Notes under the pieces: generated by a model
Told to the model about the DNA's origin: nothing
Databases searched by the model: none
Seen by the model: only the letters and a program-made list of their open reading frames with translations
Position numbers and translations under genes: made by a program
Part shown: positions 4,627-49,723 of the stretch, piece by piece
How positions within the stretch are numbered: the first letter of the stretch is position 1
Layout: the number at the start of each line of letters is the position of its first letter
Source of the DNA: Paenibacillus peoriae
GTDB lineage: Bacteria > Bacillota > Bacilli > Paenibacillales > Paenibacillaceae
Assembly: GCF_022531965.1 (NCBI RefSeq)
Contig: NZ_CP092831.1
Coordinates: 3,791,001-3,855,000 of the forward strand
Reading direction: 5' to 3'
DNA length: 64,000 nucleotides

Positions 4627-4671
4627 ACAACAAATTTCATAGTACAGTATAGAACACAGGAGATGATTGGA

Positions 4672-5892
4672 TTGGAACACAAATTTTCGGGTATGGCTCG
4701 TACTCAGGGCTCGTCCATGGTAAGGGACATTTTAAAGCTGACACAGGGAACAGATGTGTTATCTCTGGCAGGCGGCCTTCCTGCCGATGCCTTTTTCCCC
4801 ATCGAAGCTGTTGCTAAAGCCTATGAGCAGGTATTTCGCCTCGGCGGTACTACCGCTCTTCAATACGGCCTAACCGAGGGCTACATTCCTCTACGGGAAC
4901 GTCTTGCAGCAATCATGTCATCCCAAGGCATCTCCGTCACCAGAGATAACATCATCATGACGACGGGCTCACAGCAGACCATTGATCTGGTTTCGCGTGT
5001 ATTGCTCGATCCGCAGGATACTGTATTGGTGGAGTCCCCTACTTATTTGGCAGCTCTTCAGGTATTTAATTCCTATGGTGCCAACATTGTAAGTGTAGAT
5101 ACAGACTCTAACGGTATGCGATTAGAAGATCTTGAAGCCAAGATCAAAAAACATCAGCCTAAATTCGTGTATGTCATCCCAACCTTCTCCAACCCGGCAG
5201 GAAGTGTTTGGAGTATGGAACGAAGAACAGGCGTTGTTGAAATATGCCGTAAATACGGCACTTTGATTTTTGAAGATGATCCTTACGGACGTCTTAAATT
5301 TGACGAAAACCTTAACTTTCCATCCCTTTTCTCAATCGATCAACAGCTAGGTGGAGATGGTCATGTGATGTACACTTCTACATTCTCCAAAACCGTCGCT
5401 CCTGGTGTTCGATCTGGTTGGCTGGTAGCTAATCAAGCGATTGTCGTTAAAGTCGCCAATGCCAAACAATCTGCCGATCTGCACTCCAGCAGTATTGATC
5501 AACGTGCTTTGAATGAGTTATTGGACTTTTTTGACTTGGACGGACATATTCGTACTGTGTCTGCTGAGTACCATACTCGTATGCTACGTCTCACGTCGCT
5601 GATGAAAGAACGCCAATGGGAAGGAATCACCTGGAATGATGCACTTGGCGGTATGTTTATGTGGGTTACTTTACCCGAGGGATTCCGTTCTGATCGGTTG
5701 CTGCAACTCGCAATTCAGGAAGGAGTGGCATTTGTGCCTGGACAAGTCTTCTATGCTGACCTAAGTGGCAGCAACCATATGCGAATCAACTTCACGCATA
5801 CGGATCCTTCCTTGCTTCCAAAAGCAGTTGACCGATTGGATCGGGCACTGAAGATGTACACAGAGGAAAGTGTTGTAAACAGCGTGCGATGA
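4672..5892 (+). CDS. PLP-dependent aminotransferase (class I/II, LysN/2-aminoadipate-like)
   Basis: A 406-residue fold-type I aminotransferase without a helix-turn-helix. It shows the LSLAGGLPADAFFP start typical of the LysN/MocR-like group, YGLTEGYIPLRERLA, the NPAG motif in IPTFSNPAGS, EDDPYGRL and the PLP-lysine motif STFSKTVAPG. The best start is the TTG at 4672: CAGGAG ends nine bases before it, while the ATG at 4663 directly touches that ribosome site. It is divergent from a MocR regulator with operator-like repeats between, so it is probably that regulator's target. Relatives act on 2-aminoadipate, aromatic or branched-chain amino acids; the substrate here is not visible. Confidence 0.88.
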   Translation: MEHKFSGMARTQGSSMVRDILKLTQGTDVLSLAGGLPADAFFPIEAVAKAYEQVFRLGGTTALQYGLTEGYIPLRERLAAIMSSQGISVTRDNIIMTTGSQQTIDLVSRVLLDPQDTVLVESPTYLAALQVFNSYGANIVSVDTDSNGMRLEDLEAKIKKHQPKFVYVIPTFSNPAGSVWSMERRTGVVEICRKYGTLIFEDDPYGRLKFDENLNFPSLFSIDQQLGGDGHVMYTSTFSKTVAPGVRSGWLVANQAIVVKVANAKQSADLHSSSIDQRALNELLDFFDLDGHIRTVSAEYHTRMLRLTSLMKERQWEGITWNDALGGMFMWVTLPEGFRSDRLLQLAIQEGVAFVPGQVFYADLSGSNHMRINFTHTDPSLLPKAVDRLDRALKMYTEESVVNSVR

Positions 5893-5903: not shown

Positions 5904-6059
5904 GGACACGTACGTGAGGCCGCTTCACGAATCATTTGATTTTACGATCGCTGTTCCCTCTGATTCGTTTGGAATTTGAATAGCATGTTGGAATCTGGGA
6001 CAAAGATGTACGCCTCGCCTCCGTAGATTCAAATGCGTTTGCTACGCTGACTACGTGCC
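5904..6059. repeat. Interspersed foldable repeat, copy A
   Basis: One of three related intergenic elements in the window (also 18215-18401 and 48341-48572). It has the conserved left block ATCATTTGAT-TTTACGATCGCTGTT (5931-5955) and right block AGATTCAAATG (6025-6035). CATTTGA (5933-5939) pairs with TCAAATG (6029-6035). The central arms are less perfect than in the other copies. It lies between the aminotransferase gene and rnpB, in a 400-bp gap that has no open frame. Confidence 0.7.
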
Positions 6060-6305: not shown

Positions 6306-6715
6306 GTGGGGAAAGTTTTCCGTAAGCCGGGTTCTGTGCTATTCGTGGTACAGACGGGAACTACCCTCCCACTACAAGCGACAATCATCTATCTAGGCCG
6401 AACATTGCTATCCAGCTCCAGCGACCAACCTAGACACGCCTCGGGCTAAGGCTGCTTCGCGAAGAAGCTGTGTCCCATTAGGTCTTGCTCCAGATGGGGT
6501 TTACCAGGAACGAAGTCACCAGCGTTCCTCGGGGTCTCTTACACCTCGGTTCCATCCTTGCCTGTGCCGCAAGCGGCCATCGGCGGTCCATTTCTGTGGC
6601 ACTATCCTTCAACTCGCGCTGACTGGACGTTATCCAGCATCCTGCCCTATGGAGCCCGGACTTTCCTCTCGCGGCTTACGCCACCAGCGATTGTCTGTCA
6701 AACTTTCCGAACAAC
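6306..6715 (-). ncRNA. rnpB: RNase P RNA, class B
   Basis: The catalytic RNA of ribonuclease P, which removes 5' leaders from pre-tRNA. On the minus strand the diagnostic conserved pieces are present in order: GAGGAAAGTCCGGGCTCC near the 5' end, GACCCCGAGGAACGCTGG in the middle, and ACAGAACCCGGCTTA near the 3' end. The ends pair as helix P1 (GGAAAGTTT with AAACTTTCC). The size of about 400 nt and the overall pattern fit the Bacillus-type (class B) RNA. A perfect-spacing promoter lies just upstream (6723-6751). The exact 5' and 3' ends are estimated from P1. Confidence 0.96.
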
Positions 6716-7413: not shown

Positions 7414-8529
7414 TTACAAAAATTGAAAAGGTTCGGTTTCTACCTGAGATACATGTACTTCCGTTGAATAACGACCTTCTACCAAGCGTTTGCGCATCCA
7501 TTCTGCGGTTTTAGGCTTCATAATCTTTTCAGCATTATGTCCAGGGTCAATAATAGCAATCCCCGCCATCAGGGCATCGTGAGCCGTGTGATAGTCAATA
7601 TCCCCTGTGACCAATACATCAGCGCCTTTGAAAAGCGACTTATTCACATAGCGGCTGCCTGAGCCCCCAAGCACGGCTGCCTTTTTGATCATACGGTCCA
7701 AGTCGCCCACCACACGTACATGCTCCACGTTGAGGCCATTTTTCACAACATCGACAAACTCCCGTAGCGTGCGAGTTTCCTTAAGCTTGCCCACCCGTCC
7801 CAAACCAAAGGAACGGCCCTGCAAATCCATGTGATACAGGTCATAAGCCACCTCTTCATAAGGATGAGCCTTCAGCATCGCTTGAATGACTTTGTTGCGT
7901 ACAGCCTGCGGTACAATGGTTTCAATACGAACCTCTTCGCTACGTTCCATTTTGCCCGGCTCACCCAAAAACGGCTGTGTGCCTTCACCCGGCACAAAAG
8001 TTCCATAGCCGTCAATGTTAAAGCTGCAATGGCTGTAGTTGCCGATATGTCCAGCTCCCGCCCCCAGTATGGCATCCAGTACCCGTTGATGATGTGTTTT
8101 GGGTACGAAAACAACAAGCTTGAATAATTGCTCGGTGTGAACATCCTCAAGCGTACCTTCACTTTGAATACCCAGTGCTTCTGCCATCCAGTCATTCATG
8201 CCGTCCTCAGCTGTATCCAGATTCGTATGACTGATGTAGACAGCAATATCATTCTTGATCAGTTTTTCATACAATCTACCCGCAGGCTGATCTGTGTTCA
8301 AAGCTTTAAGTGGGCGGAATATAATCGCATGATGCGCAATAATGAGGTCAGCTTTTATGCGGAGTGCCTCTTCGACAACCTCATCATTAACATCTAGGGC
8401 TACTAATATGCTTTTGATTTCCTTTTGCAGACTACCCAGCTGAAGCCCGATTCTATCGTCCGGAACTGCCAAGTATTTCGGAGCCAGCTGCTCCATATAG
8501 CTAATTACTGTCTGTCCTTTGGCAAACAT
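7414..8529 (-). CDS. yqfO: Nif3-like dinuclear metal-centre protein YqfO
   Basis: A 371-residue hexamer-type Nif3/YqfO protein. The N-terminal half carries the metal-ligand His pair in DLIIAHHAIIF, and more ligands appear near the C-terminus in IDPGHNAEK. A CutA/PII-like insert (about residues 130-230, including VFVPKTHHQRVLDAILGAGAGHIGNY) separates the two halves, as in the roughly 370-residue Bacillus homologues. The molecular role is not firmly established in the family; a GTP cyclohydrolase-like or phosphoesterase activity has been proposed. Its start overlaps the end of trmK by 25 bases, so the two genes are translationally coupled, the same pairing as yqfN-yqfO in B. subtilis. Confidence 0.92.
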   Translation of the reverse strand: MFAKGQTVISYMEQLAPKYLAVPDDRIGLQLGSLQKEIKSILVALDVNDEVVEEALRIKADLIIAHHAIIFRPLKALNTDQPAGRLYEKLIKNDIAVYISHTNLDTAEDGMNDWMAEALGIQSEGTLEDVHTEQLFKLVVFVPKTHHQRVLDAILGAGAGHIGNYSHCSFNIDGYGTFVPGEGTQPFLGEPGKMERSEEVRIETIVPQAVRNKVIQAMLKAHPYEEVAYDLYHMDLQGRSFGLGRVGKLKETRTLREFVDVVKNGLNVEHVRVVGDLDRMIKKAAVLGGSGSRYVNKSLFKGADVLVTGDIDYHTAHDALMAGIAIIDPGHNAEKIMKPKTAEWMRKRLVEGRYSTEVHVSQVETEPFQFL

Positions 8530-17980: not shown

Positions 17981-18118
17981 CTATTCACGGGCTTCTTCAT
18001 GCTCGTCCGACTCTCCTTCATCCGTATCTTGCTCCCTTGTCATGGCGCTCTCCCGGTATAACAGATACGCACCGACATCTCCAGTCATCGCAAAATACTT
18101 CCACGAAAAATCTCGCAA
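17981..18118 (-). CDS. yqzL: YqzL family small protein
   Basis: A 45-residue protein starting (M)RDFSWKYFAMTGDVGAYLLYRE, a clear match in pattern to B. subtilis YqzL (LDFTWNVFSKTGSIDTYLLYKE), followed by an acidic tail rich in Glu and Asp. The start codon is TTG at 18118, ten bases after GAGAGG. It lies between era and recO, exactly where yqzL lies in Bacillus. The function is unknown. The gene is easily missed because it is short and begins with TTG. The upstream ATG at 18128 is in another frame that has no family match. Confidence 0.88.
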   Translation of the reverse strand: MRDFSWKYFAMTGDVGAYLLYRESAMTREQDTDEGESDEHEEARE

Positions 18119-18214
18119 TCGTATTCATCCTCTCTTCGGAAATGACGTTTGCATCTCAAAATTAGGATGATGCGAAGAGAAGGGAAGTATGCGATGAAAT
18201 AAATGGATTGCGTT

Positions 18215-18401
18215 AAAAAAGGCTGCTGTATGTAGAATGGAATACGCTTCGCAAATGATTTGATCTTACGATCGCTGTTACCCCCGAATTTATTTGAATG
18301 TAAAACATACAAATGGTTAAATTCGGGGGTAAAGGCGAACGCTATCGCTTCTTCAGATTCAAATCCTTCGCTCCGCACATCGTGCATACAAGGCCTTTTT
18401 T
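18215..18401. repeat. Interspersed foldable repeat, copy B
   Basis: It has the left block GATTTGATCTTACGATCGCT (to 18277) and the right block GGCGAACGCTATCGCTTCTT (18334-18353) then CAGATTCAAAT. Inner arms ACCCCCGAATT (18280-18290) and AATTCGGGGGT (18320-18330) are perfect. GATTTGA (18258-18264) pairs with TCAAATC (18358-18364). The outer arms AAAAAAGGC..TGTATG (18215-18233) and CATACAAGGCCTTTTTT (18385-18401) resemble a terminator stem. It fills most of the 500-bp era-yqzL gap, which holds no other gene I can support. Confidence 0.75.
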
Positions 18402-18453
18402 AAAGCACACCTATTTCATCGCTGGAAGAAAAGGATAAAAAGAGCAAGAAGTT

Positions 18454-22751: not shown

Positions 22752-22780
22752 CTAAAACAATCCCTCTCCATCATCTTTTT

Positions 22781-46923: not shown

Positions 46924-48303
46924 CTACAACTGTGTCCGGCTGCGCACCTCAAAGATGGCGAATTTCAAGTAATGGCCTTCCTCCACACCCAAAATTTGAG
47001 GATGGTCCTTACCAGCTGCTCTCCAGTCTACCAGACGAAGGATTTTGCCGGCATCTGCCGCTGCTTCCTTAATGGTGTCCAAAAACAACTCCGGTCGCAT
47101 GTGGAACGAGCAACTCGCTGTCACCAGATAGCCGCCCTCATTAACGAGCTTCATCCCGTGCAGGTTGATATCTTTATATCCACGTGTAGCCCCTTTGACA
47201 GCGTTCTTCGTTTTGGCAAAGGCTGGCGGATCAAGAATGACCACGTCAAAGGTGCGTCCGCCACCCGCTGTCAGCGGCTTAGACGTATCTCCTTTGCCCC
47301 CGGCTCGTGCATTGCGTTCCTCTACACCTTTCACCTGATTACGCAAATATTGAAAAGCATCGTCGACGACAAACTCGACGCGTTCCTCAAAACCGTTCAG
47401 CTTGACATTGTCCCGCGCACTTTCAATCGCATGCTCAGAAATATCAAGACAAGTTACTTTTTTAGCACCATATTTACAGGCATTGAGCGTAAAGCTTCCC
47501 GTATGTGAAAAACATTCCAATACGGTTGCGCCGTCCCAGAATGGGAATTCAACAACCTTACCACTTTTATTCACTGGCTTCATGACCGTTGTGGTAGCGT
47601 CCCCTGAGTCTGTAGCAACTTCTTGTAGCGTAATTCCACTACGTGCTCCCCAACCTGTCATCAACGGTGCTATGGCCGCACGATTTTCACGCTGGTCAAA
47701 GAAATAACCCGTCTTCTGGCCCTCTACGATATCAACCTTGATATGCAGGCCATTTTCCGTCACCACTACATGACGCGGGCAATCACCGTACAAAGGACCC
47801 TTCGTTTGTTTCAATCCTTCCAGCTCTCGGATGGATACATCACTGCGCTCATATATACCAACAGGACCCACTACTTCAACGAGCGCATCCCTGATTTCTT
47901 CCCTGCGCCGATCCATGCCAAGCGTTAACAGCTGCACAACCAACACATCACCAAAACGGTCTACAATCAGTCCAGGCAAAAAATCAGCCTCACCGTACAC
48001 CAACCGATAAGCGTCTCCCCCGGTCACAAAACGTTCGCGGTGCTCCAGGCATTTGCGAAAGCGTTGGGCAAAAAAGTTTTGATCCATTGCTTCTAGCGGC
48101 TCGTAGGACATCACACGCACTGTAATTTGTGAAGCTGGATTATAGTAACCTGACGCCAAATAACGCCCCTGATGGTTAACGATACTGACCAAATCGCCTG
48201 CCTCTGGCTCCCCTTCGATCTTGGCTATTTCGTTTTTAAACACCCAAGGGTGTGCGTGCTCCAGCCTTTTTTTACGGCTGCGTTCTAATATTACTGAAGG
48301 CAA
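46924..48303 (-). CDS. Class I SAM-dependent rRNA methyltransferase (RlmI/RlmK-like)
   Basis: A 459-residue protein of the RlmI/YwbD type. An N-terminal PUA domain (RLEHAHPWVFKNEIAKIEGEPEAG and ASGYYNPASQITVRVM) and a middle domain with YRLVYGEADFLPGLIVDRFGDVLVVQ lead into the Rossmann domain with ATVLECFSHTGSFTLNACKYGA, CLDISEHAIESARDN and VVILDPPAFAKTK. Homologues methylate cytosine (m5C1962) in 23S rRNA. Two inserts rich in Gly/Thr (about 236-250 and 335-355, GGKGDTSKPLTAGGGR) are longer than usual. The start is a TTG at 48303, nine bases after AGGAG. It is monocistronic between the addB promoter region and repeat copy C. Confidence 0.92.
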   Translation of the reverse strand: MPSVILERSRKKRLEHAHPWVFKNEIAKIEGEPEAGDLVSIVNHQGRYLASGYYNPASQITVRVMSYEPLEAMDQNFFAQRFRKCLEHRERFVTGGDAYRLVYGEADFLPGLIVDRFGDVLVVQLLTLGMDRRREEIRDALVEVVGPVGIYERSDVSIRELEGLKQTKGPLYGDCPRHVVVTENGLHIKVDIVEGQKTGYFFDQRENRAAIAPLMTGWGARSGITLQEVATDSGDATTTVMKPVNKSGKVVEFPFWDGATVLECFSHTGSFTLNACKYGAKKVTCLDISEHAIESARDNVKLNGFEERVEFVVDDAFQYLRNQVKGVEERNARAGGKGDTSKPLTAGGGRTFDVVILDPPAFAKTKNAVKGATRGYKDINLHGMKLVNEGGYLVTASCSFHMRPELFLDTIKEAAADAGKILRLVDWRAAGKDHPQILGVEEGHYLKFAIFEVRSRTQL

Positions 48304-48340: not shown

Positions 48341-48572
48341 TAAAAGTGCGGTGTTCGATGGGGCGCGGCTCCGCGGATCATTTGATCTTACGATCGCTGT
48401 TGCACGGGGATTCTTTGGATTTTATAAATGATTTTAATGGTAAGAATCCCCCTAGGTTTATACTTCCGAAGCAGCTTTCCTTTGGAAAGCTTTCAGGCGA
48501 ACGCTCTCGCTTCTCCAGATTCAAATGATCCGCTTCGCTACTGCCCGCCTGTATATCGGCGTCACGCTTTTA
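48341..48572. repeat. Interspersed foldable repeat, copy C
   Basis: The longest and best-folding copy. GCGGATCATTTGA (48373-48385) is a perfect inverse of TCAAATGATCCGC (48521-48533). GGGGATTCTT (48406-48415) is a perfect inverse of AAGAATCCCC (48442-48451). The shared blocks are ATCTTACGATCGCTGTT (48385-48401) and GGCGAACGCT-TCGCTTCTCCAGATTC. An extra small hairpin CTTTCCTTTGGAAAG lies inside. Weak outer pairing (TAAAAG / CGCTTTTA) extends the stem. It fills the 48304-48694 gap, which has no other gene. Confidence 0.78.
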
Positions 48573-48694
48573 AAGCTTGTGAAGATACTACAAAAATTAT
48601 CGTTTTCCTAAAAAGAGCTTAGCCATGCTTGTCATGGCTGTCCTCGACAGATCATAGGCTGTTACATAAGTATTTTCACCTAGAAAAGGGGGCT

Positions 48695-49723
48695 ATGCCC
48701 GTGCTTATACATGTTATACTCCCGCTGTGCGGCGGACTGTTTATTTTTTTGGGCGGGATGAAGCTGATGGAAGCAGCCCTCCGGCATTTGGCCGGCCCCT
48801 TCCTCACCCGTTGGCTGAACCGCGCCACCGTTTCCCCTTGGCGGGGTATGCTGTTCAGTTCAGGCATTACCGCCCTGTTGCAAAGCAGCACCGCTGTAAC
48901 GGTGCTGACGATCGGACTGGTCAACGCCGGGCTATTGACCTATGGCCGTACGCTCGGCATCATTCTTGGCACCAATATCGGTACCTGTCTCACCACCGAG
49001 CTGATGGGGCTCCAGCTTGGCAAGCTGGCTGTTCCGCTGCTCTGCGGCTCACTGCTCTGCTGGAGCGCCGCCGTACTGTGGGGAGAATCAATCTCCGTTC
49101 GCCAGTACGCGTCTGCCGGAGTTTCACCCGGCTCCAATGGGCTTAGCCGTCCGCAGGCTGTACAATATATCAGCCTCGTATTTGCTGGATTTTCGCTGAT
49201 TCTGGCGGGTATCCGCGTAATGCAAACGGTCGGCCCATGGATTGAGCAGGCCGGACTATTCCGCTGGTTTCTTGATCACGCTGCGGCCAACATGTGGTGG
49301 GCCTTCGCTGCGGGTGCCTGCCTGACCGCACTGGTTCACAGTAGCGCAGCCGTTATTGGCATGGCGATCAGCCTTGCCGCTGCGGGTGCCTTGCCAGCCG
49401 ATGTAGGGATCGCCATCGTCATCGGCTCCAATGTAGGCACCTGCGTGACCGCCCTGATTGCCGCTGTTGGCGGCAGCGTGTCCGGCAAATTTGTAGCCTG
49501 GTCCCATGTGCTGCTGAACGTAGGCGGAGCCTTGCTCTTTATGCCGTTGATCCCTGGGCTAGAAATGGCCGCCGCCTGGATATCTACCGAGCCCGGAGCC
49601 AAGGTAGCCCATGCCCAAACCCTGTTTAACGTCATTAGCTCTCTACTGGTCTTGCCTCTGTGCTACCTACCTGTATGGACTCGTTTAGAGGATCGTATAT
49701 CTCCCCACAGAATCAAACGTTAA
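48695..49723 (+). CDS. Na/Pi cotransporter family protein (PNaS)
   Basis: A 342-residue membrane protein with two repeated halves typical of the NptA/YjbB phosphate family. The half-repeats are ALLQSSTAVTVLTIGLVNAG with ILGTNIGTCLTTEL, and ALVHSSAAVIGMAISLAAAG with VIGSNVGTCVTALI. The QSS and HSS (second copy) motifs form the substrate site. The usual C-terminal PhoU-like domain is missing, so this is the short form. The start is given as the ATG at 48695 (two bases after AGGGGG); the GTG at 48701, with better spacing, is equally possible. It is one of few plus-strand genes and stands between repeat copy C and the Nudix gene. Confidence 0.9.
   Translation: MPVLIHVILPLCGGLFIFLGGMKLMEAALRHLAGPFLTRWLNRATVSPWRGMLFSSGITALLQSSTAVTVLTIGLVNAGLLTYGRTLGIILGTNIGTCLTTELMGLQLGKLAVPLLCGSLLCWSAAVLWGESISVRQYASAGVSPGSNGLSRPQAVQYISLVFAGFSLILAGIRVMQTVGPWIEQAGLFRWFLDHAAANMWWAFAAGACLTALVHSSAAVIGMAISLAAAGALPADVGIAIVIGSNVGTCVTALIAAVGGSVSGKFVAWSHVLLNVGGALLFMPLIPGLEMAAAWISTEPGAKVAHAQTLFNVISSLLVLPLCYLPVWTRLEDRISPHRIKR

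Follow-up and report, generated by a model that had tools for sequence, protein, structure and literature searches.

REP sequences occur as inverted pairs and in tandem arrays. RUP, an intergenic unit of pneumococci, is 107 bp long, is present in 108 copies, has terminal inverted repeats (TIRs) like those of IS630, and targets TA (PMC2229807). The ERIC repeat, also known as IRU or RU-1, is a 127-bp intergenic sequence with a TIR, a target duplication and terminal TA, and its orientation matters for its effect on mRNA (PMC2229807). The Correia or NEMIS elements of Neisseria form classes of approximately 107 and 155 bp that differ by an internal segment, and they have a 24-bp TIR and terminal TA (PMC2229807). 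An IS630-family element inserts at TA and duplicates it, according to the abstract of PMC2170065, and a title in the reference list of that paper names a preference of IS630 for CTAG. In Paenibacillus polymyxa DSM 365, interspersed repeats are simply stated as predicted in the part of PMC9202436 that treats them.

Here, we describe a repeat that has three copies in a 64-kb stretch of the Paenibacillus peoriae genome. This stretch, at its full length, is referred to as the window, its genome as G000, and other genomes and loci by our own labels (G and L). A literature search of open-licence texts found no published description of the family. With a probability of roughly 80%, we consider the repeat to be a family of non-autonomous MITEs of Paenibacillus and relatives, with a mover of the IS630 type.

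Three copies in the window

A preliminary description of this DNA reported ordered blocks common to three places. These blocks are present, in the same orientation, and all three copies are recovered by a covariance model (CM). The features are as follows.

5904-6059, + strand: copy A; CM core 5922-6039, E 1.1e-8; outer ends approximate
18191-18422, + strand: copy B, intact; CM core 18246-18372, E 5.6e-33
18260-18279, + strand: left conserved motif TTGATCTTACGATCGCTGTT of copy B
18332-18359, + strand: right conserved motif AAGGCGAACGCTATCGCTTCTTCAGATT of copy B
48341-48572, + strand: copy C; intact CM core 48368-48534, E 7.6e-20; outer ends approximate
48454-48494, + strand: nested double-hairpin module of copy C, about 40 nt, from the inner 3' arm to AGGCGAACG; ends approximate

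The inner and outer arms quoted earlier for copies B and C are correct. Copy B has arms that base-pair outward to about 18191 and 18422, and copy C is a long form carrying the nested module. The right block, which had been attributed to all three copies, is found in B and C; copy A is decayed, with the left block and AGATTCAAAT retained, GGCGAACGCTnTCGCTTCT gone and the inner stem poorly paired. All three copies had been placed outside genes. On mechanically called ORFs, copy A comes after the end of ORF 4663-5892, copy C sits between ORFs 46924-48303 and 48629-49723, and copy B overlaps a 100-codon ORF (18085-18387, - strand).

Loss is common at the orthologous sites. The inner hairpin or more is lost at the copy A site in four of seven relatives. 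At the copy B site, the hairpin is kept in four of seven relatives, while the inner part is lost in two and nearly everything in one. Orthologs of copy C in G032 and G034 are without the module, and the one in G014 has lost the inner hairpin. The window copies share the conserved core of the family and are without the clade-specific ends CTATATAARTTGAAC that are described below; they are probably old family members with diverged ends.

Two other features lie in the window. An RNase P RNA (RF00010, 257.6 bits; 6308-6706, - strand) adjoins copy A and served as a control. A second short repeat, CAAGGCAGCTACRCTGC, is seen at 22775, 25426 and 62015, and more weakly at 48875.

Copy number and distribution

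What had been presented as a three-copy repeat has 41 distinct copies in the window's genome. The sequence TTACGATCGCTGTT occurs 12 times in the 5.84 Mb of G000 (backward control, 0). The covariance model gives 55 matches at E<=0.1, from which 14 opposite-strand shadows of the same hairpin were removed by hand; the weakest of the 41 that remain has an E of 0.004. The copies were also said to point in one direction, which is true inside the window and fails genome-wide, with 22 copies on the + strand and 19 on the - strand.

An absence of copies from other genomes would have refuted the preliminary description, and this condition failed decisively. Of 59 genomes, 40 match: every one of the 36 in the genus (own genome included) and, among other families of the order, 4 of 23. 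High per-genome counts are lower bounds, since 58 candidates were scored per genome, and numbers in the genus range from one match up to this cap. A survey of Bacilli gave matches in 18 of 200 genomes, 17 of which belong to the window's family (own genome included), and the lone match outside this family comes from a fragmented genome (E 6.5e-6). The repeat is rare outside the window's family. When 80 of the 118 pattern loci were scanned, the model matched 49 of the 53 titled Paenibacillus and none of the 27 others (counted by hand).

With one G000 copy as the query, phage records gave no match and plasmid records gave partial matches in two Paenibacillus cellulosilyticus records. The core motif is also seen in 27 stretches of a viral contig collection (L426-L452).

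Structure and covariation

Across species, the repeat consists of a variable outer stem, CTTnCGATCGCTGTT, a variable inner stem with an AT-rich loop, AAAGGCGAACGCTnCGCTTCTnCAG, and the second arm of the variable outer stem. Several types of outer stem coexist within one genome. A structure of 38 pairs was written by hand on an alignment of nine well-formed copies from the 12 loci, and 94.2% of its cells pair in these copies. Changes on both sides are found at 20 of the 38 pairs, a figure that is favoured because the structure was derived from those same sequences, although the margin is large nonetheless: shuffles have a mean of 7.9, and 0 of 500 reach 20. When the partner is shifted by one, two or three columns, at most nine two-sided pairs remain.

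The extent first described for the hairpin is exceeded in many copies. Beyond the core, 17 of 30 copies show renewed flank pairing that exceeds the 95% level set by 870 flank-swap controls; copy B is among them and copy C is not. This pairing was detected by local alignment, as an unpaired bubble interrupts anchored extension.

The double-hairpin module of about 40 nt is optional and, in the long copies that were read, lies between the inner 3' arm and AGGCGAACG. A similar module occupies the same position in L077, L118, L170 and the G002 copy at an insertion site referred to below as site 1, where G002 alone carries it among five filled genomes. In L155, a similar module lies elsewhere within the right block.

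Variants of the arrangement were seen at several loci. One subfamily has the outer stem GGATGGTnCTT / AGCACCATTCCG and the motif CCATCGCTGTT (L077, approximately 730-870; L078, approximately 650-830; - strand). Near-alike copies form tandem arrays with a period of approximately 182-190 nt at L168 (1247-1734), L082 and L079. L335 and L314 hold palindromes of 72-73 nt, TGTATAGATTGAAC...GTTCAATGTATACA, without the core motif, which are possibly another small element.

Placement relative to genes

The two ends of the repeat are placed differently. On the basis of ORFs, it is the left end that lies closer to a gene in 23 of 28 G000 copies, in 32 of 40 copies from elsewhere and in 38 of the 48 copies that are solo; the sample holds 68 of 74 copies, the remaining six having no gene on one side. 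Where the left gene in G000 reads towards the copy, the core starts at most 57 nt from the stop codon in 16 of 17 cases. By a crude rule, 14 of the 74 copies overlap an ORF of at least 85 codons, and 11 of these ORFs have at most 155 codons.

Gene strands in G000 (left gene + 17, - 12; right gene + 15, - 14) show no clear strand preference relative to genes. Of 44 copies at other Paenibacillus loci, 42 have a right-hand gene. This gene lies on the - strand in 33 cases, so that the element's reverse strand tends to be in the sense orientation and downstream (3') of a gene.

Neighbouring copies are mostly arranged as '+ then -', both in G000 (seven of nine neighbours within 10 kb) and in four relatives (21 of 26 within 5 kb, among the matches listed and after opposite-strand shadows had been taken out by hand; some are mutually orthologous). 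The order '- then +' was found once in 35 neighbour pairs, in addition to L184, where a - copy precedes a + copy by 1 kb. An intergenic region often contains two copies with their left ends gene-ward (G000; L072, L073, L074, L076, L077), and other unique hairpins occur between such paired '+ -' copies. The asymmetry of placement is left unaccounted for by symmetric TIRs.

Two gene-adjacent copies, beside genes that we take by eye to be folP-like and ugd-like, had prompted the idea that the outer arms are inverted copies of the target flank. This idea was rejected. The ends are suggested to be element-borne, because several G000 copies have a common terminal consensus, AGTGAGTTAYGG / CCRTAAAGTCAC (by eye).

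Pairing of the arms

The preliminary description had left a choice between a structured RNA and a mobile hairpin element. If the repeat were a structured RNA motif, it would probably be read from the reverse strand and act in mRNAs on stability or processing, with its stems under RNA selection. The strong covariation (20 of 38 pairs) and the frequent sense position of the reverse strand (33 of 42) favour such a motif, and ERIC, a known MITE, affects mRNA in an orientation-dependent manner (PMC2229807).

Mismatches in the outer stem point the other way. They were counted after 202 aligned rows had been reduced to 167 (at least 105 letters), then to 162 (at least 24 Watson-Crick pairs), and finally to 109 representatives with less than 85% identity. 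The outer stems of these sequences contain 34 G.T against 37 A.C mismatches. The RNase P control, counted over pairs whose commonest state is Watson-Crick, has 21 G.U and no A.C in 18 same-genus sequences, and 78 against 6 in 30 sequences of the order, a contrast that is indicative rather than exact because the RNase P structure was predicted on its own alignment and is biased to pairing. Judged by this comparison of mismatches, the outer arms seem to be kept paired at the level of DNA. On the + strand, the stems of the 109 representatives also contain 140 C.T against 24 G.A mismatches, at a few pairs.

The inner stem gives a less clear picture, with about 39 G.T against about 55 A.C mismatches when the near-invariant T.G pair and the loop-closing pair are excluded. 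Its first 11 pairs have 51 A.C against 14 G.T on the + strand in 140 of 149 copies (nine poorly paired copies excluded), and 32 against 10 in 81 of 88 representatives (seven poorly paired excluded; p 0.0009). Since an excess of A.C on the + strand means wobble on the reverse strand, this speaks for an RNA. However, a single position holds 14 of the 32 A.C mismatches, and without it the counts are 18 and 10. In RNA folding, the reverse strand has a slight advantage when flanks are included (81 of 149, Wilcoxon p 0.007), and the strands are equal when the core is folded alone (43 of 88, p 0.90).

Orthologous sites provide a second view of the arms. Thirteen comparisons at four loci, which have common ancestry and in which the copy C locus was entered from two genomes, contain 95 single-sided changes (38 G.T, 27 A.C, 30 other) against 19 Watson-Crick doubles and eight other doubles. 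The doubles together exceed the 7.0 of any kind that are expected. These changes fit arms that are complementary mainly at the DNA level, with frequent loss, and the inner hairpin is lost at several of the orthologous sites.

Searches against Rfam found RNase P alone in the window at gathering scores, leaving the repeat unmatched. Six loci searched at E<=1 gave two miRNA hairpins far below the cut-offs and no family match. With no Rfam match, no wobble preference in the outer stem and repeated loss of the inner hairpin, the structured-RNA half of the first reading is unsupported. Given also the little strand preference in G000, we regard a structured RNA as unlikely, although the inner-stem counts and the gene orientation in other species lean towards one on the reverse strand.

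Terminal inverted repeats and empty sites

The ends of the repeat are clearest in the G024-like clade. Here, units are 188-195 nt long, or 226-233 nt with the optional module, and are bounded by inverted repeats CTATATAARTTGAAC. G024 contains 118 occurrences of the 14-mer TATATAAGTTGAAC with at most one mismatch; its backward control has 6. The 100 of these places that were listed include 35 pairs of neighbours no more than 5 kb apart, of which 29 face inward, with spacings of 189-194 nt (17 pairs), 226-233 nt (eight), shorter distances (three) and 3.6 kb (one).

Empty sites in relatives had been proposed as a check, and one precise empty/filled site was found. Site 1 is empty in G022, G023, G024 and G027, which carry GGATATCTATTACATCC, and filled in G011, G033, G002, G025 and G008; a tenth genome, G016, has no element, but its sequence has diverged. 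The empty form has a single TA, and the filled form has TA on either side of a unit TATAAGTTGAAC...GTTCAACTTATA, most plainly on the right side in G033. On comparison of these sequences, site 1 appears to be a precise insertion and is consistent with TA duplication, as one clean site that belongs to the G024-like clade and not to the window copies; in G011, a duplication of TATCTA would fit as well. At a second candidate site, G011 alone is empty and the element is flanked by direct repeats in the others, which may reflect a deletion between these repeats.

In 29 distinct TIR-bounded units, the base before TATATAA is C in 21 and the base after TTATATA is G in 23. Unless they are part of the TIR, these bases are consistent with the CTAG preference of IS630.

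Two further candidate insertions were rejected. The element is absent from L334 at 7708-7860, and at the locus of the G034 copy (position 290539 in the joined stretch), G032 retains a remnant, so that deletion seems to have occurred in G000 and G014.

Copies also cluster by genome. In a sample of 100 copies (from 104) out of hand-picked genomes, 64 of 94 copies have their nearest neighbour in their own genome, against a mean of 14.4 and a maximum of 29 in label shuffles. Together, this clustering, the TIR units and the empty site show amplification within the genus.

Such amplification bears on whether the repeats are passive palindromes, that is, a dead family with arms kept complementary through template switching alone and no current mobility or function. 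The double changes in orthologs (19 and 8 against 7.0 expected) and the common deletions would be expected of such a family. It is nevertheless very unlikely, in view of the TIR units, the precise empty site, the clustering by genome and the 95 single-sided changes that outnumber the doubles.

Candidate mover

The transposase domain PF13358 was found in one of eight element-bearing genomes searched, namely G000, as two decayed pieces. The other seven have none, including G024 with its 118 TIR matches, and the mover therefore appears not to be resident where the element is common. In the family, PF13358 is present in 30 of 118 genomes. The two pieces in G000 were rejected as movers, being decayed and with no common ends seen.

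A better candidate lies in another genome, G322. L458 (632-1804) is an IS630-type element of 1173 bp, with two overlapping transposase frames and with HTH and DDE_3 (E 1e-37) domains. Of 35 element ends, the closest agrees with its left end at 22 of 24 positions, and the consensus does so at 20 of 24 (the latter counted by eye); in a control with the IS end against itself, the best of 20,000 shuffles reached 18. Like the units, it has C and G at its edges, with TA outside them. L458 is the one locus with matching ends among the six IS630 loci read; L457 shows one TATAAGTTGAAC, and the other four have TATATAGAnCG repeats. The genome of this matching IS is different from the one in which the element was seen to be abundant (G024). 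A fitting type of mover can be identified, and its ends suggest that an L458-type transposase may mobilise the units. The mobile-element half of the preliminary description is supported by the dispersed copies, the clade-specific TIRs, the precise empty/filled site and the matching IS630 ends.

Three regions between widely spaced '+ -' copies (L075, L080, L081) show no transposase by eye; one glycoside-hydrolase-like frame was seen in them.

Another type of mover would be a Y1 (RAYT) transposase, which moves REP/BIME-like elements as single-stranded hairpins. The palindromic, intergenic nature of the repeat, its tandem arrays with a period of approximately 182-190 nt and its inverted '+ -' pairs all resemble such elements. 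However, units of fixed length with TIRs and insertion of the TA type are at odds with them, and Y1_Tnp (PF01797) has no match in G000, while the control search was positive in 5 of 14 genomes. On this search of G000, a Y1 transposase was rejected as the mover, and this origin is extremely improbable.

Proposed mechanism and significance

On the MITE reading, the unit would be moved in trans, by cut and paste, by an IS630 (Tc1/mariner-type) transposase whose ends agree with its own. Inserted copies would later decay, and the inner hairpin would often be lost in the process. An entire unit forms an imperfect palindrome around a conserved asymmetric internal motif. Its arms are most likely held in Watson-Crick pairing at the level of DNA, which could come about by replication template switching from arm to arm or by selection for a folded DNA strand. 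Such pairing would imitate the covariation of an RNA. Against the MITE reading, the window copies lack CTATATAARTTGAAC ends, TA duplication is indicated at one site of one clade, and TIRs fail to account for the conserved internal motif and the placement rule.

A more speculative proposal, which we hold tentatively and consider rather doubtful, is that recognition of the internal motif takes place in a folded DNA strand, while the arms are rewritten from one another by template switching, generating covariation without RNA selection. If this is true, the copies, which probably number in the thousands across a bacterial family, show compensatory covariation as a mobile element constrained by its DNA hairpin. 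They would be a systematic trap for covariation-based RNA discovery, for which equality of G.T and A.C would be diagnostic.

The presence of dozens of units beside genes in Paenibacillus genomes is relevant to annotation, repeat-based typing and RNA discovery. The units give a strong result in a covariation test, although the outer stem is without the wobble signature of a known RNA from the same genomes. The empty/filled site and the IS630-matching ends make mobilisation directly testable.

Comparison with known systems

The repeat most likely represents a MITE family that is new and of the RUP/IS630 kind; its unusual feature is the variable yet paired arms around a conserved internal motif. 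The likenesses that follow for RUP, ERIC and Correia/NEMIS are likenesses in kind only. Like RUP with IS630-Spn1, it is a short intergenic unit with IS630-type ends and TA. Unlike RUP, it has another host, its arms vary around a conserved motif, and the matching IS lies in a different genome. It resembles ERIC as an intergenic repeat with a TIR and terminal TA, but ERIC is enterobacterial, and co-varying arms go unmentioned for it in the relevant part of PMC2229807. As in Correia/NEMIS, there are two size classes (approximately 191 and 231 nt here) and TA termini, whereas the optional segment here is a double hairpin of about 40 nt at one place. Inverted pairs and tandem arrays, as far as these are described, are common to the present repeat and to REP/BIME with RAYT, from which it differs in unit length, in its TIRs and in having no Y1 transposase in G000.
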